A stretch of DNA of 64,000 nucleotides from Hyphomicrobium sp. D-2. GTDB lineage: Bacteria > Pseudomonadota > Alphaproteobacteria > Rhizobiales > Hyphomicrobiaceae. The stretch covers positions 436,501 to 500,500 of the forward strand of contig NZ_JARXLA010000008.1 in assembly GCF_029872155.1 (NCBI RefSeq). The letters are read 5' to 3'. This document shows positions 6,450 to 43,849 of the stretch, in pieces. Each line of letters starts with the position of its first letter. Position 1 is the first letter of the stretch. Below the pieces are notes generated by a model that did no database searches, was not told the origin of the DNA, and saw nothing but the letters and a program-made list of their open reading frames with translations. A program made the translations under genes and the position numbers.

Positions 6450-6809
6450 ATGCTCGAAGACGGCCTTTATGGCCTGCGTTTCGTCGCCACCGATGGCGAC
6501 GAGCCCGGCGCATCCGGCGGCCTTGCCGTGCTGCGCTCCGGCACTGTGCTCGGCTCCGATCCGCTGGGCGCGGTTTTCAGCGGCACCTACGAATATGACG
6601 GCGGCCGCGAGCTCAATCGCGTGCGGCTGCGGCTCGATGTGCCGCCCGATGGCGTGCTGGTGAACGGCTACACCGCCGGCCCTCACGGCGCGACGCTGCA
6701 CATCGCCGGGGCGTTCCCGCGCGCATCGGTGGATTCAGCGGCCTATCTGCAGGTCGCCGGCTCGCCCATCAGCGTTGAAATCAGGTATCTTGGCCCCTTG
6801 CCCAACTAG
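6450..6809 (+). CDS. small GrlR-like (lipocalin-fold) protein of unknown function
   Basis: 119-aa soluble protein, not a standard member of the ribosomal operon. The start MLEDGLYGLRFVATDGDE, the VLRSGTVLGSD strand pair and FSGTYEYDG resemble the pattern of GrlR-family beta-barrel proteins (first described as negative regulators of type III secretion, but widespread as small 'negative regulator GrlR' homologues). The match is by pattern only. GAGGGGG precedes the ATG at 6450. It sits between rpsP and rimM on the same strand, 124 bp after rpsP and 125 bp before rimM. No type III secretion genes are in the window, so a virulence role should not be assumed. Confidence 0.6.
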   Translation: MLEDGLYGLRFVATDGDEPGASGGLAVLRSGTVLGSDPLGAVFSGTYEYDGGRELNRVRLRLDVPPDGVLVNGYTAGPHGATLHIAGAFPRASVDSAAYLQVAGSPISVEIRYLGPLPN

Positions 6810-6934
6810 AGCCGCTCCGTTTCGGGTGCATGACAACCGGCCGGCTCTGGCTGGTTTGTCCCATCGTGACTGTGACCGGAAAGCGGGTTAGCGCTTCCGG
6901 TGTCAGCACCTCCAGCGGAACGGCGTCCCACACC

Positions 6935-7531
6935 ATGACCGAGCAAGCCCCGCGCGTCCTCCTTGGCCGCATCGTTGCAGCCCACGGCATTCGGGGTGAG
7001 GTGGTCGTCGAAACCTTCACCGCCAATCCGGAAGATATCGCTGCCTATGGGCCGCTGCAGTCGGCGGATGGTGCGCGTACGTTCGAGCTGAAGGTGGTGC
7101 GGCGCTCGCCAAAGGGCGGCGTGGTTGCGCGGGTCGCGGGCGTAGCTGATCGCAACGGTGCCGAGGCGCTGCGCAAGACCGAGCTATACGCTCTGCGCTC
7201 CGATCTGCCCGAGGCAGAAGCGGGCGAATACTACCACACGGATCTGATTGGCCTGAGGGTTGAGGACGCCAGCGGCGCGGCGCTGGGCAAGGTGGTCAGC
7301 GTGCAGAATTACGGCGCCGGTGACTTGCTCGAAATCCGTCTTGATGGCGTTGCGATCACGGAGCTGGTGCCGTTCACCGACACGTTTGTGCCGACGGTTG
7401 ATGTTGCTGGCGGCCGCGTTGTTGTGGAGGTGCCGGTTGCAAGCGTTGATGACGCGGAAGACGCCGCGCTACGTCAGGCCGCCGAAGAAGCAGGCGACGG
7501 TGACGAAAGCGGCGAGAGCGACGCTAGATAG
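6935..7531 (+). CDS. rimM: ribosome maturation factor RimM
   Basis: Assembly factor that binds S19 and helps mature the head of the 30S subunit. The ATG at 6935 gives MTEQAPRVLLGRIVAAHGIR, the RimM N-terminal barrel; the PRC barrel follows with YYHTDLIGLRVED and LLEIRLDG. The upstream open frame to 6830 has no family match. The acidic tail after about residue 170 (AEDAALRQAAEEAGDGDESG) is poorly conserved in general, and its coding DNA occurs a second time at 9313-9402. trmD, the normal next gene, is absent here and lies near 58 kb on the other strand. Confidence 0.95.
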   Translation: MTEQAPRVLLGRIVAAHGIRGEVVVETFTANPEDIAAYGPLQSADGARTFELKVVRRSPKGGVVARVAGVADRNGAEALRKTELYALRSDLPEAEAGEYYHTDLIGLRVEDASGAALGKVVSVQNYGAGDLLEIRLDGVAITELVPFTDTFVPTVDVAGGRVVVEVPVASVDDAEDAALRQAAEEAGDGDESGESDAR

Positions 7532-7630
7532 CATGATCTCGGTGGCCGATTGCAATCGTTGGTCCTCGCCTGTTCAGAGCATCCGGCGCAATTGCTGCCG
7601 GAGGCAACCGCATACGCGAAAGGCGCTACA

Positions 7631-8377
7631 GTGGACATTCCGCGCATCTACAATATCTCCGAGGCGGCACACCGGATTCACAATCCGCTGACGCCGGAAA
7701 AGCTCGCCACGCTCGGCGCGGCGTTGCGCATGCCAGAAAACGCCCGTTTGCTAGACCTTGGCAGTGGCTCGGGAGAGATGCTCTGCACCTGGGCGCGCGA
7801 TCATCGCATCAGCGGCACGGGTATTGACATGAGCCGCCTGTTTGCCGCGCAAGCCAAACTCCGCGCTGAAGAACTTGGCGTCGAAGATCGCGTCGCATTC
7901 ATCCACGGTGATGCCGCCGGCTATGTCGCCGATGCGAAGGTCGATGTTGCATGCTGTGTCGGTGCCACGTGGATTGGCGGCGGGGTTGAGGGCACGATCG
8001 CGCTGCTGGCGCGGAGCTTGCGCCCCGGCGGGGTCATCCTCATTGGCGAGCCATACTGGCTGCGGTTGCCGCCGACGGAGCATGTTGCAAAGGGATGCCG
8101 GGCGAATGCGATTGCTGACTTTATGCTTCTGCCTGATCTGCTCGCGGCTTTCGGAAGCCTCGGTTACGACGTCGTCGAAATGGTTCTTGCGGATCAGGAT
8201 AGCTGGGATCGCTACGAGGCAGCCAAGTGGCTGACGATGCGCCGCTGGCTGGAAGAAAACTCTGACGATGATTTTGCGGCAGACGTTCGCGCTGAGCTTA
8301 CCTCAGCGCCCGAACGATACGTCAGATATGCGCGCGAATATCTGGGTTGGGGCGTCTTCGCCCTGATGGCGCGGTGA
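7631..8377 (+). CDS. SAM-dependent class I methyltransferase
   Basis: Methyltransferase of unknown substrate, about 248 aa. Motif I is LLDLGSGSGEMLC, followed by GTGIDMS for the ribose-binding acidic residue, and a later LRPGGVILIGEPYW. A GTG at 7631 with AAAGG eight bases upstream gives MDIPRIYNISEAAHRIHNPL, the conserved opening of this family; the longer frame from 7550 has a weaker start. The gene begins about 100 bp after rimM and ends one base before the next GTG, so it is probably coupled to the unknown gene that follows. Both lie inside the segment bracketed by the duplicated rimM tail. Confidence 0.85.
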   Translation: MDIPRIYNISEAAHRIHNPLTPEKLATLGAALRMPENARLLDLGSGSGEMLCTWARDHRISGTGIDMSRLFAAQAKLRAEELGVEDRVAFIHGDAAGYVADAKVDVACCVGATWIGGGVEGTIALLARSLRPGGVILIGEPYWLRLPPTEHVAKGCRANAIADFMLLPDLLAAFGSLGYDVVEMVLADQDSWDRYEAAKWLTMRRWLEENSDDDFAADVRAELTSAPERYVRYAREYLGWGVFALMAR

Positions 8378-8378
8378 A

Positions 8379-9272
8379 GTGGACGATGGCTACATTGTCG
8401 TTCAGCGCATGAAAATTGAAAACGCCACCAGCAGCAATTCGACAGCTTCGCATCGTGTGCTGGTGTGGTGGGACGTCGATATAAACATCGGTCCCTTTCA
8501 CAAGAGAAAGCTGACGTCGCGGCCGCTTAAAGAGCTTGAGCGCGCGCTTGGTCACCGGCTTCACGTGGAAGGCAGGTGGCGCCACGATAAACACGCGCCA
8601 GATGTCTGGAAGTTTGAAGCATTCAACTATCTCGACACGGATGATCCGGCTCTGGCGGCATGCTTCATCCTTTCGCAGTCTGTCAGACTTTCTGAGTGGT
8701 TGGTTGTGTCGTGGCACGGCTTCAATGCAGCTGCGACCACAGCGGCTGATGATCTGGATGCGTCCACGATTTGTGCGTTCTATTGGAGCCCGCCCGACCA
8801 GATCGGAATGACGCGTTATATTTCGTCGGGTGTTCAGCTGAATCTGGTTGATATCCGGAACGATGTTCCTGACCGCTTTCGGCGTTTAGCTAGACCTGTA
8901 GTCAAAATTCCTGCCGCATCTCTGGGACGCAACGACTACCTGATCCAATCCACTGCGCACATACTTTGCGACAACCGGCGCGATCTTCTCGACATGCATT
9001 TGCCTCGCTTGCCGATGGCGGAATGGGCGGATGGTATGGTTCAGGTTGACGTTGATGCGCTTACATCCGACGGGACACCGAACATTATTCGGATTCAACA
9101 CACGCTAAACCAAGTCTGTGAGCATGAAGCCATTGCGCACGTTCTGTCGTTAGCGCAGGGATTTCGAATTAAGATGAGCCGCAGCAATAGATTGTTGGTC
9201 CTGGGCGAACGCCCGGCGCGCGGCGAATATTCAGACGGCATAGTTTCATTTGAGATGACTCAAGTCATCTGA
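8379..9272 (+). CDS. hypothetical protein, about 297 aa, lower GC than neighbours
   Basis: Not recognised. The product is soluble, with an N-terminal segment RVLVWWDVDINIGPFHKRKL, a central AFYWSPPDQIGMTRYI and a C-terminal RIQHTLNQVCEHEAIAH. There is no signal peptide or membrane helix. The start is either GTG at 8379, one base after the methyltransferase stop, or ATG at 8409. Base composition is lower in GC than surrounding genes (the line at 8821-8880 is about 50 percent), suggesting recent acquisition. It is the second gene of the two-gene insert between rimM and the duplicated rimM tail. Confidence 0.6.
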   Translation: MDDGYIVVQRMKIENATSSNSTASHRVLVWWDVDINIGPFHKRKLTSRPLKELERALGHRLHVEGRWRHDKHAPDVWKFEAFNYLDTDDPALAACFILSQSVRLSEWLVVSWHGFNAAATTAADDLDASTICAFYWSPPDQIGMTRYISSGVQLNLVDIRNDVPDRFRRLARPVVKIPAASLGRNDYLIQSTAHILCDNRRDLLDMHLPRLPMAEWADGMVQVDVDALTSDGTPNIIRIQHTLNQVCEHEAIAHVLSLAQGFRIKMSRSNRLLVLGERPARGEYSDGIVSFEMTQVI

Positions 9273-9312
9273 GTCTCGCGCATTGGAAAAACATCGTCTC
9301 ACGATTGATCGT

Positions 9313-9402
9313 TCCGCGGAAGACGCCGCGCTACGCGAGGCCGCCGAAGAAGTAGGCGACGACTGTGACGAACCGGACGATGTCGATCCGCACGCGCACT
9401 GA
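9313..9402 (+). pseudogene. duplicated 3' end of rimM (remnant)
   Basis: From 9314 the DNA repeats the rimM 3' end starting at 7455: GCGGAAGACGCCGCGCTACG is identical, and about 48 bases match with three mismatches, followed by a shared GTGACGAA after a 3-base offset. It reads AEDAALREAAEEVGDDCDE and then DPHAH with its own stop at 9402, against AEDAALRQAAEEAGDGDES in rimM. The frame is preserved, so it may be the original end of rimM, displaced when the methyltransferase and its neighbour were inserted with a replacement tail. It has no start of its own. Confidence 0.8.
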
Positions 9403-9648
9403 ATGCTGTGGCGCGCGTTTGCGTCGGCATTTGGATTTAGCGCACTTTTGCTATTGCCCTGAAATGGTCGCGAATGCGCTGCAGCTTGCAGGGCAGGGCT
9501 TCGCCGGGCACAATTGGTGATATGGCCTCTTGCGAAGCTCTGAGGCCGCACCTACTTTCGGCCCGACACATGACTGGAGACGCTATCGATATGGACATGA
9601 ACCTCGCTGCCTTCACCCTTTCGGTTTCGCTGCGAGAAGTCATGTCCC

Positions 9649-11232
9649 ATGCCTCCATCCGTTTCCCTCACCGGCCTGTCCTGGTCCACGCCTGACGGCA
9701 CGCCGCTTTTCACTGATCTCAATCTGAATTTCGGTGCTGAATGCACCGGCATTGTCGGCCGTAACGGTGCTGGCAAGAGCACGCTTCTGCGCCTCATTTC
9801 CGGCGATCTGCGCCCTGCTTCAGGTCATGTGCATGTATCGGGCACCATCGCCATGATGCGGCAGGATGCGATGGAGCGGCCCGGTAAAACGATCGCGGAC
9901 GTGCTGGGCGTACGGCAAGCGCTCGATCGGCTCGATCGCGCAGAAGCAGGGCTTGCGGATGCTGACGACATGGCTGAAGCAGACTGGACGTTGCCCGCAC
10001 GGATCGAGACAGCGCTGTCGCGTTGTGGTCTGACCGCGCCGTCGCAGACACTGCTAACTACGCTATCGGGTGGGCAACGCAGTCGCGCCGCGCTTGCAGC
10101 GTTGATCCTTGCCGCGCCCGACTTTCTGCTGTTGGACGAGCCGACAAATAATCTCGATCGGGCGGGACGCAGGGCTGTAATCGATCTCATCCGAAGCTGG
10201 GCCGGTGGCGCGATTATCGTCAGTCACGATCGCGAATTGCTGGAGGAAATGGGCGCCATTGTCGAGCTGAGTTCTCTTGGCGCGGCCCGCTATGGCGGGA
10301 ACTACAGCGCCTTCCGGCAACGCAAGGATGCCGAGTTGGAAGTGGCATCGCGCGACCTTGCCCGCGCGGAGAAGACCAGTAAAGAGGCGGCCCGCCGCGC
10401 ACAGCAAGCGGTCGAACGCAAAGCGCGCAAGGACAGTGCCGGGCACAGGGCGCGGGCAAAGGGTGATCATCCGAAAATCCTGTTGGATGCCAGCAGGGAT
10501 CGGGCAGAAGCCTCGGGTGCTGCGGGCGCGCGTGTGCGTGATGCCCGACGCGAGACGGCTGAAACAGCGCTGTCCGCCGCGCGCGAGAAGATCGAAGTAT
10601 TGCAGCCGCTACGGATGGACGTTGCCTCAACGGGACTGCAAGCTGGCAAAGTTGTGCTTCGGCTCGACGGCGTAACGGGTGGATATGACCCGATGCGAGC
10701 CGTCATCAGTGATTTTTCGCTGAGCATCATCGGGCCAGAGCGCGTGGTTATTGCCGGGCCAAACGGCAGCGGAAAGACGACGCTGCTCAAATTCATCGTC
10801 GGCCACCTCGTGCCGCAGAGCGGCCGCATAACGGCGATGGTGCCGTTCGCGATGCTGGATCAACATGTCGGATTGCTCGATTCCAATCGAACATTGCGCG
10901 AGAATTTCCAGCAGCTGAACCCTTCCGCCGATGTACACGCCAGCCATTCAGCCTTGGCGCGGTTCGGCTTTCGTGCTGGCGACGCATCGCAGCTGGCGGG
11001 CAACCTGAGCGGGGGTGAACGCCTGCGCGCCGGCCTCGCCTGTGCACTTGGGGGCATGCCGCCGCCAAGTTTATTGATCCTCGACGAGCCCACCAATCAC
11101 CTGGATCTGGACGGTATTGCGGCCCTCGAAGCGGCACTCAACGCTTACGATGGCGCGGTGCTGGTCATCAGCCACGACGATGCGTTTCTTAAATCGCTCG
11201 CACCCCACCGAACAATCCATCTGCGCGGATGA
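9649..11232 (+). CDS. ABC-F family ATP-binding cassette protein (two ATPase domains)
   Basis: Soluble tandem ABC ATPase without membrane domain, related to the Uup/EttA/resistance ABC-F proteins that act on the ribosome. First domain: GRNGAGKST near residue 40, signature LSGGQRSRA, Walker B LLLDEPTNNLD. A charged linker rich in Arg/Ala/Lys follows (about 240-330), then the second domain with GPNGSGKTT, LSGGERLRAGLA and LILDEPTNHLD. Length is 527 aa. ABC-F proteins modulate translation or give antibiotic protection; which applies here cannot be read from sequence. The gene starts about 250 bp after the rimM-tail remnant and is followed by a ubiH fragment on the opposite strand. Confidence 0.9.
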   Translation: MPPSVSLTGLSWSTPDGTPLFTDLNLNFGAECTGIVGRNGAGKSTLLRLISGDLRPASGHVHVSGTIAMMRQDAMERPGKTIADVLGVRQALDRLDRAEAGLADADDMAEADWTLPARIETALSRCGLTAPSQTLLTTLSGGQRSRAALAALILAAPDFLLLDEPTNNLDRAGRRAVIDLIRSWAGGAIIVSHDRELLEEMGAIVELSSLGAARYGGNYSAFRQRKDAELEVASRDLARAEKTSKEAARRAQQAVERKARKDSAGHRARAKGDHPKILLDASRDRAEASGAAGARVRDARRETAETALSAAREKIEVLQPLRMDVASTGLQAGKVVLRLDGVTGGYDPMRAVISDFSLSIIGPERVVIAGPNGSGKTTLLKFIVGHLVPQSGRITAMVPFAMLDQHVGLLDSNRTLRENFQQLNPSADVHASHSALARFGFRAGDASQLAGNLSGGERLRAGLACALGGMPPPSLLILDEPTNHLDLDGIAALEAALNAYDGAVLVISHDDAFLKSLAPHRTIHLRG

Positions 11233-11261: not shown

Positions 11262-11372
11262 ATGCGCCGACCGGAGTAGCGTTGCGTCGCTGGAGAACAG
11301 GCGGTTGATGCCGTCGAAACCGCTGAAGCAGATCGCCGCCTGCGCTCATAGCGGCGCAACGCCTGCAGATTG
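11262..11372 (-). pseudogene. fragment of a ubiH-type monooxygenase gene (duplicate of 15810-15925)
   Basis: The plus strand at 11278-11320 repeats 15822-15861 (AGCGTTGCGTCGCTGGAGAA and onward) exactly for about 40 bases, then after a 15-base deletion continues ACCGCTGAA and GCTCATAGCGGCGCA. Minus-strand translation gives QALRRYERRRRSASAVSTA, against QALRRYERWRRFDSAVSTA in the intact gene, and then runs out of frame. It is therefore a decayed copy of the 3'-proximal part of the oxidoreductase gene at 15692-16951, same orientation. It lies at the far side of the inverse autotransporter/LuxR/GT51 region. Confidence 0.8.
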
Positions 11373-11387
11373 CAGGACGGCCTGCCG

Positions 11388-13031
11388 TCATGGGGGGCAG
11401 GTCGCGCCGCCGGCCAGGCCAATACTGCCCGTAATTGTACCACTCGCAAAACACCCGCCGCTGACGAGCGTATTGCCGGTCGAGCCTGGATTGAATGTTA
11501 GGTTGGACGCCAGATAGAGGCTACGGCTGATATCGCCGCCTGCTGCGTTGAACGTGTTGCCGGCGATAGTGTAGGTACCGCCATTCATGAACAGGGGGAC
11601 CGCGTAGTAGCCCAACGTGGAGGTGGCGCTGAGGCTGTTGCCGGTCACGGTGACCGTCGAATTAACAAACTGCAGAGCAGCCACGTTATTGTTCGTTCCG
11701 GATACCGATATTGTGTTGTTGGCAATGGTTACGCCACTGACGTTACTGGCATTCACACCGGCGGCGCCGATTGTGCCGACGACGTTGATGGTTAGACCAG
11801 AGAGAGCGCTGTCGCTGGCCATCTGAAATGCGGGTGTGCCGGTGGTGGTGGAACTAAGATTGACGGTGGCGCCGGGCGTCGTCAGCGTCGCGGTGCGGCC
11901 GGACGCTGTTTGTACGGCGACATTGCCCGCGCCCATCACCGTCTGCCCCGATTGCAACGTCGTGGTGGCCGTCGTCACAAACGTACCAGACAGAATGACA
12001 AAGCTATCGGCGCCGGCGTTTGCAACGGCGCTCGGCAGGGTTGCGCCAGACGTTGTGGCGCTGTCGATGACGGTGATGTCATCGCCATTCGTCGTCTGGG
12101 TCGCGGTTTCGGCGATAGTCGGCGCCGTTACGCTGCGCGTCTCCGTCACGATGTCGATGTCGCGCACGACGAAGTCGGTCATGCGGCGCTCCTGCCAGTT
12201 CAGCGGACGCCTGTCTGCGCTCTCGGACTGCAACGGGATACGCAAGCGCGCCATCGCGAAGCCCTGGCTTCCGCGCACGTTGTCATCCTGGTATTCGGCG
12301 CCGAGCGTCAGCCGTGAATCTTCCCCCAGATAGGGCAGCTCATAGACGGTAAGCTCGGCCCGGAACCGTGGGCCGGTGATGGCTTCCACCACGCTGTCGT
12401 CGAAGCGGAACATGCCGGCGTAAAGGCGCAGCGCCTTGTTGTCCTCAACAGCCCAGATTGGAACGCGCCAGCCGATCTCAGCGTCGAAGCCCTGCAAAGC
12501 GCGCTCCTGGCTGAAAGTTGCGCCCATCGTCGTCACCTCGATGGCGTTGCCGACGATGCTCGCATAGCTCCCGCCACCTGGAATGGCGGCGAGGTCCCTC
12601 ACGCGGTCGCCGAACGGAAGATAGCCATTGGCGCGGAGGTCGAAGTCACGCCCCAAAGCCTCGACGCCGAATGTTGCCTGGCTGAAGTAGCCGTCGAGCG
12701 AGGAGCGCGACCGATCAAAAAAGCCGTAGGCCCCGACGTTCCAGCCGGACGGAAACATGTGCCGCAGTCCGAGGCCGAAATTGCCCTCGCGGCTGCCTTC
12801 ATCGTCGGCGCGCATGCGGATATCGCCGAACAGAAGCGTGCGATCGCTCTGCGCCAACGGCAGGAAAAAGTCGATTACGCCGAGGCTGCGCTCATTCCCG
12901 TACAGCCCTTCTACATCGACGTGCGCGCCCCACTTCCGGGCTTCCGAGGTGGATACTTGTTGAGCGGATGCCTGGCCATGGGCGGATAACACGATGGCCG
13001 CAACTACAGCGGCAATTCGGCTAAGATGCAT
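11388..13031 (-). CDS. inverse-autotransporter-like outer membrane protein with beta-helix passenger
   Basis: Predicted surface protein of 547 aa. A Sec signal peptide ends near residue 24 (AHGQASA). Residues about 30-290 resemble the intimin/invasin-type inverse autotransporter barrel: LLFGDIRMRADDE, FGLGLRHMF, VGAYGFFDRSRSS and LRANGYLPFGD. The rest is a Thr/Ser/Asn/Gly-rich passenger with periodic VTIANNTISVSG and VTVTGNSLSATS repeats, typical of right-handed beta-helix adhesins, ending in GGATCPP with a last Cys. The N-terminal barrel and C-terminal passenger is the inverse order. A LuxR gene lies 131 bp upstream on the same strand. Adhesion is inferred, not shown. Confidence 0.8.
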   Translation of the reverse strand: MHLSRIAAVVAAIVLSAHGQASAQQVSTSEARKWGAHVDVEGLYGNERSLGVIDFFLPLAQSDRTLLFGDIRMRADDEGSREGNFGLGLRHMFPSGWNVGAYGFFDRSRSSLDGYFSQATFGVEALGRDFDLRANGYLPFGDRVRDLAAIPGGGSYASIVGNAIEVTTMGATFSQERALQGFDAEIGWRVPIWAVEDNKALRLYAGMFRFDDSVVEAITGPRFRAELTVYELPYLGEDSRLTLGAEYQDDNVRGSQGFAMARLRIPLQSESADRRPLNWQERRMTDFVVRDIDIVTETRSVTAPTIAETATQTTNGDDITVIDSATTSGATLPSAVANAGADSFVILSGTFVTTATTTLQSGQTVMGAGNVAVQTASGRTATLTTPGATVNLSSTTTGTPAFQMASDSALSGLTINVVGTIGAAGVNASNVSGVTIANNTISVSGTNNNVAALQFVNSTVTVTGNSLSATSTLGYYAVPLFMNGGTYTIAGNTFNAAGGDISRSLYLASNLTFNPGSTGNTLVSGGCFASGTITGSIGLAGGATCPP

Positions 13032-13162: not shown

Positions 13163-13936
13163 TCAGCGCCGGCTGAGCCAGAGGCTCATCAATCCTGCGC
13201 GGCTGCGGACACCGAATTTTCGATAGATGTTGACCACGTGCTGATGGGCCGTGGAAGCAGCGATTTCCGCTTGATGGGCGATGTGCTTTTCAGAAGCGTC
13301 GGTCAGCAGAAGCTGCAGAACCTTGCGTTCGGCAGGTGTCAGCGGAGCGGATGCCATGAGGAGGCCGTGGCTTAGCATCAGGTGGCGGTGGAACCACTTT
13401 ATGCCCCGCGCCGCGTAAGCGAGGAGCGCGATCTCCTCATCGGTGAATGTATTCCGGGAATAGAAGCCTAAGTGCGACTCGCAATCGCCATTCATGGGAA
13501 AGGCGACGAAGACAGCGTCGTGCGTCCCCACCGAGCCGTAGTAGGCTTCATAGAATGGAGAACTGAACCAGTCAGGGGGCAGGTCGCGGCGGAGCGAGTA
13601 GGTTCTGAATGTGCCGACGTCCCGTAACGGCAGAAGAAAAGATACATCGATCTCGCGCCGGTCCCAGATGCGCAGGATCTCCTTGAAATGCCCCTCATCG
13701 GGAAGGGATCCGGCGGCATGGAGCGCCTGCACAGCACCCACGCGCCACCCGGCCAACGGATCGTCAGCGTTTGCTCCGCCGACGCGTATCGCTCCGGCCC
13801 AGGTGGCATTCCATGCGCCGCCGAGGTCGCAGAGTCGGGTCAAGAGGTGTCGCGCGGCTTCCTCAGACCTGCTGGTGTCGAAATCTGAAATTTCATCCCA
13901 GATGCGATGGACTTCTTCCTGAGCTTGAACGTCCAT
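13163..13936 (-). CDS. LuxR-family transcriptional regulator
   Basis: 257-aa regulator. The C-terminal 65 residues are a LuxR-type HTH: LTPAERKVLQLLLTDASEKH, then AASTAHQHVVNIYRKFGVRS. The N-terminal 180 residues resemble no signal-binding domain I can name with confidence; they lack obvious acyl-homoserine-lactone-binding spacing, and no luxI is nearby. It is immediately upstream of, and codirectional with, the inverse autotransporter gene, so control of that surface protein is a reasonable inference. Confidence 0.85.
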   Translation of the reverse strand: MDVQAQEEVHRIWDEISDFDTSRSEEAARHLLTRLCDLGGAWNATWAGAIRVGGANADDPLAGWRVGAVQALHAAGSLPDEGHFKEILRIWDRREIDVSFLLPLRDVGTFRTYSLRRDLPPDWFSSPFYEAYYGSVGTHDAVFVAFPMNGDCESHLGFYSRNTFTDEEIALLAYAARGIKWFHRHLMLSHGLLMASAPLTPAERKVLQLLLTDASEKHIAHQAEIAASTAHQHVVNIYRKFGVRSRAGLMSLWLSRR

Positions 13937-14712: not shown

Positions 14713-14985
14713 CGCGAGTTTCCGGCGGCCGGGTGTAATCCCGGCCGTTTCTGTTTCTATCTGTCAATATATCGTGATACGATGTGTGTCGAGCGGATCG
14801 ATTGGCGCTGAATGTTCTTCTGCATGGACAGATCAGATCTGCTGACTCCGCGCTGCCTTCGGCAGCTTTTTGCGCACTGTCATCCGTTCGCACTTTTCGC
14901 ATTTCCGCTGAGCTCGCTGCGCGCCTCGGAATGGCCGGAAACACATGTGCAATTGGGCCATCCTAAATCGCAGCGCGCGGATGGC

Positions 14986-15669
14986 ATGAGAAAAGTATTC
15001 AAGTTTGCAGGCATTCTGGTTGGTGTGCTCCTTGTTCTGGTGCTCGGCGCGGTTCTTGTGTCGGGTGGGCTGGGCTACATCGATGCGCGTTCGGACGCCG
15101 ACAAATTGCGCGCGCGGGCCGATGCGTTGATTGCGCAGGGCCGTGGCGGCGATCAGCTGGGAGCGCGCCATCGCGAAATTCTGCTCGCGGTTGAAGATCC
15201 GAATTTTGCTGGGCATGGCGGCGTCGATTTTTCGACACCGGGCGCAGGACTCACGACGATCACGCAATCGGCTTCCAAGCGCTTGGGCTTCGATAAGTTT
15301 CGTCCCGGCTTTGGCAAGATCCGGCAGACCGGCTATGCGCTTGGTCTGGAAAGCAAGCTGTCGAAGGAGCAGATCCTGGGGCTTTGGCTCGATACGCTTG
15401 AGATGGGCAAAGGTCCCGACGGATGGATGGTCGGGTTTCACAACGCGAGCACCGCAGTTTACGGCAGGCCGCCAGCGGATTTAAGCGAAGCGGAATTCAT
15501 CCGGCTGGTTGCTGTGCTCATCGCTCCGGCGGCGTATGATCTTTTTGATGCGCAGGACACCAAGCTTTCAGAGCGGGCCGCGCGCATCGAACGGCTGGTT
15601 GCGGGTGCGTGTTCGCCAGCGGGATTTTCCGATGTCTGGCTTGATGGATGCGCGCAACCGGCGCAGTAA
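14986..15669 (+). CDS. membrane-anchored GT51-like transglycosylase domain protein, probably degenerate
   Basis: 227 aa with one N-terminal membrane helix (about residues 7-30), then a reduced GT51 peptidoglycan glycosyltransferase domain. Visible motifs: AVEDPNFAGHGGVDF (first catalytic Glu present), GLTTITQSASK, LESKLSKEQILGLWLD and ASTAVYGRPPADLSEAEF. In motif 3 the usual RKxxE reads KIRQ, so the second conserved Glu appears lost. There is no transpeptidase domain. The ATG at 14986 is chosen because the longer frame from 14812 adds only out-of-family residues. It ends 22 bp from the convergent monooxygenase gene. Confidence 0.7.
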   Translation: MRKVFKFAGILVGVLLVLVLGAVLVSGGLGYIDARSDADKLRARADALIAQGRGGDQLGARHREILLAVEDPNFAGHGGVDFSTPGAGLTTITQSASKRLGFDKFRPGFGKIRQTGYALGLESKLSKEQILGLWLDTLEMGKGPDGWMVGFHNASTAVYGRPPADLSEAEFIRLVAVLIAPAAYDLFDAQDTKLSERAARIERLVAGACSPAGFSDVWLDGCAQPAQ

Positions 15670-15691: not shown

Positions 15692-16951
15692 CTAAACCCG
15701 CTCGCCGCGCAGCAGCTTTGGCACGTTACCGGTGAGGCCTGCGGCTTCCTCGACGAAGAAACGCTTCAGCGCCGGCACGCGATCGACAACACCGAGACCG
15801 AACTCGCGCGCGGAGCGTAGCAGCGTTGCGTCGCTGGAGAACAGGCGGTTGATGCCGTCGAACGTTGCTGTCGAAACCGCTGAATCAAAACGCCGCCAGC
15901 GCTCATAGCGGCGCAGTGCCTGCGGATCGCCCGCGTCGAACCCAAGCCGCATGTTATCGGCCACCGCTTCCGTCAGCGCCGCGATATCGCGCAGGCCGAG
16001 GTTCAGCCCCTGCCCCGCAATGGGATGAACGCCATGCGCGGCGTCGCCGATCAGCGCAAACCGCGGGCCGACATAGCTGCGCGCCAGATGCATCGACAGC
16101 GGCCACGACTGGCGCGGCCCTTCCAGCGTGATGGCGCCGAGGCGGCCACCGAAGCGCTTCTCCACCTCGTGCAGGAAGCCGTCATCGTCCAGCGCCAGAA
16201 TGCGCGCGGCTTCCTTCGCATCCTCACTCCAGGTGATGCAGGCGCGGTTGCCGGTCAGCGGCAGAATGGCGAACGGCCCGCCGGGCAGGAAGTGCTGCAC
16301 CGCGCGGCCTTCATGCGAATGCGCGTGCTGCACCGTGGTGACGATGCCGGTCTGCTTATAGTCCCAGCCGATCAGTTTGATGTTCGCCGCTTCGCGCAAC
16401 GTCGATTTGCGTCCGTCGGCGGCGATGACCAGTGCGGCGTTGATTTCACGGCCGTCGGCAAGCTGCACCGTGGCGGTGGCGTCGTTGGTGGTGAAGCCGG
16501 TTGCGCTTGCGGGCGCGAGCAGCGTGACGGACGGGTGTGCTGCCACACGCGCGCGCAACGCATCGGCCAGCAGGTGCGCCGGCACAATGTGCGTTGCAGT
16601 TTCGCCATCGCCCGTGACGTTGTCATAGCGCAGCAGCACTGGCCGCACGCCGGCATCGAGCGGGGAGTCGGTCAGCTCGATCCCCGTCACGGGCTGGGCG
16701 GCGTGGGCGATACTGTCCCAAACGCCGATGGCCTGCAGCAGGTGGCGGGATGCAGCGGAGAGGGCAAAGGCGCGGGCATCGTGCGCGTGGTTGGTCTGAT
16801 GGCCGGATGTTGCAGCGGGCGGCGATGCGCGATCGATCAGGGCGATGCGTAGGTCGTCGCCCAAGGCGTCGGCGAGAGCGCAGGCCAGCGCCATGCCGGC
16901 ATAGCTGGCGCCGGAGATCGCGACATCGAAACGGGCGGGCTGTTGCGCCAT
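15692..16951 (-). CDS. FAD-dependent UbiH/UbiF/COQ6-family monooxygenase
   Basis: 419-aa flavin hydroxylase of the ubiquinone synthesis family. Rossmann start with VAISGASYAGMALACALADA, where the usual GxGxxG reads GASYAG; NAD/FAD motif VIAADGRKSTLREAA; and the second FAD motif FALIGDAAHGVHPIAGQGLNLGL split across about residue 295-320. The ATG at 16951 removes 80 residues of upstream open frame that lack family similarity. The ring position it hydroxylates (UbiH, UbiF, UbiI or UbiL role) is not decidable here. A decayed partial copy lies at 11262-11372. It is divergent from tesB. Confidence 0.88.
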   Translation of the reverse strand: MAQQPARFDVAISGASYAGMALACALADALGDDLRIALIDRASPPAATSGHQTNHAHDARAFALSAASRHLLQAIGVWDSIAHAAQPVTGIELTDSPLDAGVRPVLLRYDNVTGDGETATHIVPAHLLADALRARVAAHPSVTLLAPASATGFTTNDATATVQLADGREINAALVIAADGRKSTLREAANIKLIGWDYKQTGIVTTVQHAHSHEGRAVQHFLPGGPFAILPLTGNRACITWSEDAKEAARILALDDDGFLHEVEKRFGGRLGAITLEGPRQSWPLSMHLARSYVGPRFALIGDAAHGVHPIAGQGLNLGLRDIAALTEAVADNMRLGFDAGDPQALRRYERWRRFDSAVSTATFDGINRLFSSDATLLRSAREFGLGVVDRVPALKRFFVEEAAGLTGNVPKLLRGERV

Positions 16952-17236
16952 TTGCAATCCATCCTTCAGTGCGGCCAGCGGGTTCGCACGATTTGCAGAG
17001 CGCCCCGGCTGGATAAGCTGATAGCAAGATCGGGGCGCGGGAGAAACGCCCGGTGGTGACGCGCGGGGCTTGCTCGCGAGCAGCGGCAACCCATTTGCGG
17101 CATGGGACTGGCCTGCGTCAGTGGATTTTGGCTCGTAGCGGGGCAGCGCGTAGCATCCGTCGGCCGACGCCGTATCGCTAGCGCGGGTCAAGGCTCGGGG
17201 CGCGGAACAGGCTTCAGGCAGAGAGAAGGGACTTAG

Positions 17237-42474: not shown

Positions 42475-42778
42475 CTGCGCGCTCCGCGGCGGGCTCCCCG
42501 GAAGGGGAGTTGCCGAGCGCAACTAACAACCAAGGCCGGCTCCCTGACGGGGCAGACATACGTCCTCCCGGCGCAGGCCGGGATCTACGCAATTCTCCGC
42601 AATAGCGCGGCCGGCAGGAACGTCTAGAGTCAGACCGCGCGCATCGCTTCATGCGGCTCGACGTCTGAAGCTGGCGTGGATCCCGACCGTTGTCGGGATG
42701 ACAGTGTGGGGAAAGCAGGCGTTTGCCGCGCTCAGCGGCCGGCTCCCCGGAAGGGGAGTCGCCGAGCGCCACAAAAAG
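42475..42778. repeat. mosaic of small palindromic repeats downstream of hslU
   Basis: No gene. Two direct copies of an imperfect palindrome of about 40 bp, near 42480-42520 and 42729-42769, share the core GGCTCCCCGGAAGGGGAGT and flanks GCGCTC...GAGCGC, with stem CTCCCC-GGAA-GGGGAG. Between them lie two other hairpins: TCCCGGC/GCCGGGA at 42566-42583 and ATCCCGAC/GTCGGGAT at 42680-42699. They resemble extragenic palindromic elements that recur in alphaproteobacterial intergenic spaces. They could act as bidirectional terminators between the convergent hslU and dipeptidase genes. Confidence 0.8.
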
Positions 42779-43849
42779 CTAAGCCTGCCGTGCAGCCATC
42801 GCCTGCTTCAGTACGCGGGCGAAGTTGCCAATGGCGATGTTGCGGATAGCGGCATCGTCATGGCCTGCCTTTTGCCAGGCGCGCATGACCTTCTGCAAAT
42901 CCGAATAGCTGGCGATGGCAGGGCGAGAAATCGCATTCATGTCGGTGCCGATGCCGGCGTGCTCGGCGCCGAGCCATTGGCCCAGCTCCCACAGGCGCTT
43001 CGCGTAGGCATCCGGGCCTGCTCCGATGTCGGAGCGCATCGGCCACAGACCAACGACGCCGCCTTTTTCCGCCATCAGCTTCGCGGTGTCGAAGGTGATC
43101 TGACGCGCCTGCCACACCGGCATTTTCCAGTTCGGCTGGCGGGTGCGCGTCACCGATGAGTGCGACCAGATCACGGGCTGGCTCGATGCTTCGATCGCCT
43201 GCCGCGTCGCCTTGTCGGTGCAGTGCGCAAGGTCGATCAGGATGCCGAGGCGATTGCACTCCTCGATCACCTTGAAGCCGAGCGGCGTAAGACCGCCGTG
43301 GCGTGGACGCTCGGTCTGGAAATCGCCGATCGGATTTTCAATGTAGTGCACAAGCTGCACGCTGCGCACGCCCTGCTCCCACGCGCGCACCAGAGGCGTT
43401 GCATCATCCTCGACGATGGTTGCGCCTTCCAGCGTCAGCACCACATGCGGATCACCGGTGAGCGCGTTGTCGACGTCATCGGGCGTCAGCGCCAGTTTCA
43501 GGTTCTGCTCGGTGATATGCTTCTTGATGCGCGCGATGTCGGTCTCGAACCACTCCGCCGCTTCGCCCGGTTTCGGACGGCCCTTCTGTTTCAGGCCTTT
43601 CGATGTTGGCCGGATCCACGGCACGTCGCCCACTAGCGACCAGCCGACGAGCGTGGCATGGCCTGCGCGCATCGTTGGGCCAAGCGGTTTCTTGTCCGGC
43701 GTGTTGGCGCCGAAGAAGAACAGATGGGCGTGCATGTCGCCGATATAAACCGGCGCGCGCCCCTCAGCGAATGAGGGACGCGCAGTTCCAGTCAAGGTGC
43801 AGGAAGCGGCGAGTGCGCCGAGCGCGAACTGCCGGCGGTCAATTTGCAT
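42779..43849 (-). CDS. membrane dipeptidase (peptidase family M19), Tat-exported
   Basis: 356-aa renal-dipeptidase-like metallopeptidase. The N-terminus MQIDRRQFALGALAASC has a Tat-type twin Arg. Metal-binding region: GDMHAHLFFFG, then LTLEGA, IDLAHCTDKATRQAIE, WSHSSV, GIGTDMN and C-terminal NIAIGNFARVLKQ. Likely acts on dipeptides in the periplasm, possibly D-Ala-containing peptidoglycan fragments. It is 31 bp downstream of the permuted papain-like gene on the same strand, so the two are probably one operon. Confidence 0.9.
   Translation of the reverse strand: MQIDRRQFALGALAASCTLTGTARPSFAEGRAPVYIGDMHAHLFFFGANTPDKKPLGPTMRAGHATLVGWSLVGDVPWIRPTSKGLKQKGRPKPGEAAEWFETDIARIKKHITEQNLKLALTPDDVDNALTGDPHVVLTLEGATIVEDDATPLVRAWEQGVRSVQLVHYIENPIGDFQTERPRHGGLTPLGFKVIEECNRLGILIDLAHCTDKATRQAIEASSQPVIWSHSSVTRTRQPNWKMPVWQARQITFDTAKLMAEKGGVVGLWPMRSDIGAGPDAYAKRLWELGQWLGAEHAGIGTDMNAISRPAIASYSDLQKVMRAWQKAGHDDAAIRNIAIGNFARVLKQAMAARQA

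Follow-up and report, generated by a model that had tools for sequence, protein, structure and literature searches.

Insertion of a methyltransferase gene between two copies of the rimM 3' end in a Hyphomicrobium lineage

The 3' end of rimM, which encodes a ribosome maturation factor, occurs twice in the 64,000-nucleotide stretch of Hyphomicrobium sp. D-2 analysed here (the whole of which we call the window), once within the gene and again 1.9 kb downstream with other genes in between, raising the question of how the end of a host gene came to lie on both sides of them. The gene itself (6935–7531, forward strand; TIGR02273, 145 bits against a cut-off of 66) encodes a protein with the tail GDESGESDAR, and copy 1 of the repeat lies within its 3' end (7453–7499, forward). 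This stretch recurs at 9315–9361 as a 47-nt direct repeat with 94% identity (44 of 47 bases equal, three mismatches), which extends to 7453–7507 and 9315–9372 at 90% when gaps are allowed. Copy 2 forms a truncated rimM end (9315–9402, forward) that keeps the rimM frame and has its own tail, DEPDDVDPHAH, its sequence being open to a TGA at 9402; the counterpart in the nearest relative is longer. The initial annotation, which had described this recurrence with three mismatches and an open frame of its own, was correct on these points, and when 301 bases spanning the rimM end were searched against the DNA of the same genome, just these two places matched. RimM tails are acidic and variable, and a chance likeness of such low-complexity tails might be imagined, but its probability is negligible: the ungapped score of the repeat is 38, against a maximum of 16 among 454 random pairs of same-size stretches from the window, and copy 2 and the rimM end of the nearest relative agree at 93 of 95 bases, which together refute chance as the origin of the repeat.

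The comparison with relatives used eight genomes of the genus (G000–G007), of which G000 is the genome of the window and G001 its nearest relative. Downstream of rimM, the window holds a methyltransferase leader (7532–7630, forward), the final ~25 bases of which resemble the family leader by eye, and then a YjhP-family class I SAM-dependent methyltransferase identified by profile and homology matches (7631–8377, forward), which is common to G001. This is followed by an orphan ORF, hereafter gene 2 (8379–9272, forward), a second insertion present in G000 only, where 908 bp stand against 22 bp in G001. Beyond copy 2 lie an ABC-F family ATPase (9649–11232, forward; ribo_prot_ABC_F, 335 bits, under the cut-off of 380), found likewise in the G001 interval, and a truncated, internal duplicate from the 3' part of ubiH (11264–11370, reverse) that adjoins a 3.65-kb insert missing from G001. 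The G000-only insert carries genes for an inverse autotransporter beta-domain protein (11388–13031, reverse; PF11924) and a LuxR-type regulator (13163–13936, reverse; PF00196). A transglycosylase-like gene common to G001 (14812–15669, forward; PF00912) precedes the ubiH-like FAD monooxygenase gene (15692–17191, reverse; PF01494), the likely ancestral tail-to-tail partner of rimM. The order in G001 is rimM, methyltransferase, rimM-end copy and ABC-F, with copy 2 starting 12 bp past the methyltransferase stop.

Relatives of the window's genome retain the empty site. Five further genomes of the genus (G002–G006) have both rimM and ubiH on one contig stretch, the contig of G007 ending too soon; the two genes stand tail to tail, with aligned ends 99, 68, 110 and 3 bp apart in G002, G003, G004 and G005, respectively, and 630 bp apart in G006, compared with 8161 bp (8.2 kb) from the rimM stop to ubiH in the window and ~4.4 kb in G001. 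Outside the genus, ubiH lies 15–256 bp from rimM in 6 of 23 loci (L010–L032); most of these span only ~1.5 kb per side, which makes the other loci little informative. Because the spacing is short both in genus members and in loci beyond, tail-to-tail adjacency of rimM and ubiH is likely the ancestral state, and the whole content of the interval here was probably gained. The methyltransferase, with a copy of the rimM 3' end on either side, is a lineage-specific insertion. An insertion with an empty site in relatives was what the initial annotation had proposed, and the distribution that it named as contrary to its proposal, with the same genes and both copies throughout the clade, is not what we observed, as the insertion is seen in two of the eight genus genomes.

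The proposal that two genes had entered together did not hold, given that the methyltransferase is common to G001 and gene 2 is found in G000 only. Gene 2 had been described as an unrecognised gene of lower G+C, and it is: its G+C is 53% against 61% for the window, and the ORF has no Pfam or NCBIfam match at E ≤ 0.001. It also lacks matches in plasmids, viral contigs and PADLOC, has a single match in PHROGs at E 0.24, and yielded a structure model with a mean pLDDT of 35, which is useless. Searches found it in one of 40 relatives and one of 385 genomes of the class, in both cases G000 itself. In that genome it occupies the place of the first half of copy 2; it is missing from G001, where the rimM-end copy directly trails the methyltransferase. 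Gene 2 probably arrived later than the methyltransferase, at the cost of the start of copy 2, and there were at least two events, the methyltransferase first and gene 2 afterwards. That G001 has instead lost gene 2 is less likely, because its copy 2 has an intact start, which such a loss would need to restore.

The divergence of the methyltransferase bears on the age of the first event. The coordinates given for the methyltransferase ORF start at a GTG that family members conserve, and 7550 could be an earlier start. G000 and G001 differ at 65 of 744 bases of the gene. Synonymous divergence is 0.30, compared with 0.36 for the rimM core and 0.13 for the ABC-F gene, and the respective dN/dS values are 0.117, 0.053 and 0.135, while identity of the two genomes over 237 windows has a mean of 93.5% (sd 2.4%). 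As the divergence of the methyltransferase falls within the genome-wide range, the gene predates the split; the data fit its descent from the common ancestor of G000 and G001, and purifying selection maintains it.

The two copies of the rimM end show a mixed pattern of relationship. Within the 47-bp core, four sites are shared by both copies within a genome and differ between genomes, with no site of the opposite pattern, and the tails past the repeat are common to both genomes, copy 1 being of the SDAR/SDAK type and copy 2 of the DPHAH/DPRTH type. Because the cores match within each genome and the tails match across genomes, the simplest reading is a duplication before the G000/G001 split with gene conversion since. 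We also considered accretion, in which a rimM–methyltransferase and a rimM–ABC-F version of the interval were fused by unequal recombination, so that the copies are the ends of two alleles. Tails that differ past the repeat in both genomes would be expected from such a fusion, as would the sharing of both versions by G000 and G001, and both tails are short and acidic like those of other RimM proteins; however, they are not clearly related past the repeat when compared by eye, and the copies match within genomes and not across them, so that we regard this origin as unlikely. A comparison of tails in relatives had been suggested as a way to tell whether a DPHAH-like or an SDAR-like tail is the original one, and with it whether the insert supplied a replacement tail; the comparison could be made, but the six other genomes of the genus have RimM tails (DEDDAS, EDEPD, ENAAG, DSAWQ and, twice, KPETD) that are unlike both copies and so favour neither. 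Tail acidity was tried as a separate test and dropped as not applicable: 166 of 47,206 random read-through tails are at least 36% acidic, and what follows the repeat in copy 1 does not reach that share (2 of 7 and 3 of 10 residues acidic).

The methyltransferase matches E. coli YjhP (PDB 1NKV; 248 residues, 1–248; E 8e-121) and two further solved structures, 5BP7 and 5EPE, over its full length, and on this likeness of sequence it is assigned to the YjhP family. In E. coli, according to the accessible part of one study, yjhP belongs to a topAI-yjhQ-yjhP operon (PMC12121999), and the accessible part of another does not establish a function for the family (PMC12096079). The window gene resembles E. 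coli YjhP in its full-length sequence and differs in being a lone gene behind rimM, with no toxin–antitoxin partner noted beside it. In a scan of genome contigs, at least 578 places encode a relative; the best 80 of these (L077–L156) are 77–81% identical and, judging by record titles, come from Alpha-, Beta-, Gamma- and Deltaproteobacteria, Verrucomicrobia, Planctomycetes, Chloroflexi, Actinobacteria and candidate phyla. Within its own order the gene was detected in 14 of 397 genomes at E ≤ 1e-40, a close copy is present in four of 40 relatives (G000, G001, G006 and G019), and 19 plasmid records carry it at E ≤ 1e-20. Such promiscuity across many phyla is unusual for a single gene of this kind and makes the methyltransferase a notable traveller.

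The conserved family leader of ~48 bases opens with the integron core motif GTTRRRY in 19 of 96 loci, 42–60 bp ahead of the family start, compared with 1.9% of 905 background places; a downstream core is weaker (16 of 96 loci, background 8.8%), and both cores occur in 9 of the 96, a set that includes at least one record twice. An integron integrase scored over the cut-off in 10 of 19 searched carrier genomes and in none of 14 controls, the 20 carriers (19 of them searchable) having been chosen partly for cassette-like flanks. We conclude that integron cassettes account for at least part of the spread of the methyltransferase family. The leader motif and the carrier genomes might suggest that an integron integrase inserted a cassette with the methyltransferase into a secondary site within rimM, but the flanks in G000 and G001 have no core site, none of the eight genus genomes has an integron integrase over the cut-off, and insertion of a cassette by itself yields no duplication, which makes this route very improbable. 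The window copy thus resembles a cassette as a single-gene unit of a family with such leaders, whereas it and the G001 copy are outside the loci having both cores, and the window methyltransferase has either lost its cassette ends or never had them. One integrase-like match in G000, outside the window (L192, G000:C3), is a tyrosine-recombinase-like ORF; it was not accepted as an integron, as it adjoins an ORF resembling an IS91-type transposase.

Genomic islands and other integrative elements occupy the 3' ends of genes, as in tRNA islands, at the ends of protein genes (icd/e14) and in cis-mobilizable remnants. The analogy with tRNA islands drawn in the initial annotation lacks its chief component, an integrase. 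The locus shares with such elements the repeats of the target gene's end, a target gene that stays open and an empty site in relatives. It differs in having inserts of less than 1 kb, one gene, two rimM copies with different tails and, as had been remarked beforehand, no visible integrase, as neither ORF between the copies matched a recombinase, integrase or transposase in profile searches, PADLOC or PHROGs. This is unlike a 15.5-kb island in G000 (G000:C8:240729-256197) that has a 45-bp repeat at a tRNA-Thr gene and is missing from G001 (joined stretches). A transposon or insertion sequence is likewise a poor model, given the lack of inverted repeats of at least 20 nt in 6800–10200 and of a transposase match between the copies.

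Further gene-end copies occur in the genus. In G001 a 660-bp insert, absent from G000, is flanked by identical 41-bp copies of the ubiH end that include the stop. Each copy has 9 differences in 41 bases from the ubiH end of G000, and the enclosed ORF (L157, 13770–14339) has a marginal match to DUF6998 (27.6 bits, cut-off 27). The G000 piece of ubiH at 11264–11370 is like the ubiH of its own genome at 8 of 9 decidable sites, and is therefore a local copy. In G006 the end of pyrE is repeated at 53 of 60 bases (L046, 952–1011 and 1364–1423) around ~350 bp with a small ORF, and the repeat adjoins that genome's methyltransferase, which sits outside the copies. Within at most ~1.5 kb of pyrE, no second pyrE end was present in the seven other genomes. 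As a test of which pyrE copy is the original, the inner and outer copies were compared with G003 and G002, the two genomes with a tail of equal length; they show 15 and 14 differences, respectively, from G003 and 14 and 14 from G002 over 60 bases, which favours neither copy, and the larger counts for other genomes reflect a shifted register.

These repeats, three at the 3' parts of two neighbouring genes and one at pyrE in G006, could point to a recombinase that prefers gene ends, and the rimM repeats might be the attL and attR of an integrative-element remnant of the cis-mobilizable type, whose integrase was lost while the cargo stayed. The repeats do span the 3' end of a protein gene, the ubiH repeat of G001 is similar in length to that of the tRNA-Thr island, and the pyrE end is duplicated as well. 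Set against this are the absence of a recognised integrase between the copies, inserts of ~0.35–0.9 kb, three different target genes that would need separate elements for rimM, ubiH and pyrE, repeat sequences that are not evidently alike by eye, and a second rimM match in one of 40 genomes (in a protein search, which missed the short copy of G000). On balance, we consider a remnant a serious possibility, if a doubtful one. Cis-mobilizable elements are not mentioned in the accessible part of PMC4701971.

To see how insertions in this lineage are usually marked, G000 and G001 were compared over ~400 kb. The comparison gave 19 gaps, three of them in the rimM–ubiH interval, a locus chosen because of the finding itself; four gaps that were too short, or whose sizes were too similar, were left out and 15 were tested. 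Two insertions have long flanking repeats, the tRNA-Thr island in G000 and the ubiH insert in G001, and the other 13 have no flanking repeat over the random level, some random maxima being inflated by overlapping windows at short inserts. End duplication is not the usual mark of insertion here and, because 13 of the 15 insertions are without a flanking repeat, insertion without the signature of a site-specific recombinase is common.

We favour, with about even confidence, a capture of DNA in an insertion hotspot, in which one-sided homology or end joining duplicated the end of the host gene. As described in the accessible part of PMC3240628, homology-facilitated illegitimate recombination fixes one side by homology and joins the other without it, and can add foreign DNA beside a conserved gene. 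Such a capture would explain the single-gene insert, the preserved gene and a short overlap at one junction, namely the four bases GTTG in the right junction of G001 (TGATGC-GTTG-CTG), which are also found, by eye, downstream of many family members and in rimM. Ku is encoded in six of the eight genus genomes (G000, G001, G006, G002, G003 and G005). Several observations weigh against the capture model. It leaves by itself the origin of the 40–100 bp copies unexplained, as simple end joining usually leaves no duplication of that size; 13 of the tested insertions have none; and Ku is also present in G002, G003 and G005, where no such duplications were seen. The foreign rimM donor expected under one-sided homology is not visible, copy 2 resembling the host rimM, which would require gene conversion.

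Under the favoured capture model, the rimM–ubiH interval, ancestrally a few to ~100 bases long, would have become a landing strip in the G000/G001 lineage. A single methyltransferase gene would have been captured before the species split, with ~100 bp of the rimM 3' end copied to its far side through homology in rimM on one side and illegitimate joining on the other, or through end joining at a staggered break, and not by a site-specific recombinase. One full end would have remained on the rimM side, keeping the gene intact, and continued recombination between the two copies would account for their match within each genome. Later, in G000 alone, gene 2 would have entered between the methyltransferase and copy 2, removing the start of the latter. 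A broader and distinctly less probable scenario is a genus-wide process of single-gene capture, with an unrecognised recombinase or one acting in trans, that would have a preference for protein-coding host genes at their 3' ends (rimM, ubiH and pyrE) and would copy 40–100 bp beyond the cargo so that the target survives; the repeats would then permit homogenisation, loss and exchange of cargo by ordinary recombination.

Integrases normally accompany islands that rebuild the end of their target gene. Here single-gene inserts at the end of a protein gene show a comparable footprint without one, repeatedly at a single locus. Should ordinary DNA capture favour this outcome, duplicated gene ends would serve as a legible scar of gene gain without an integrase, and such scars would help to date these events.

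Some flanking direct repeat is present at 15 of 95 methyltransferase loci, and the end of a neighbouring gene was recognised directly beside the methyltransferase in G001 only. A survey of G000 (500.5 kb) and G001 (400 kb) gave ten close repeat pairs, four of them at rimM–ubiH. Proximity to a gene end proved non-discriminating as a criterion, as all ten pairs have the stop of an ORF of at least 100 aa within 45 bp of a copy. Elsewhere in the window, an intergenic short direct repeat of REP-like appearance lies at 42478–42534 and 42727–42783, with copies 249 bp apart and 86% identical.
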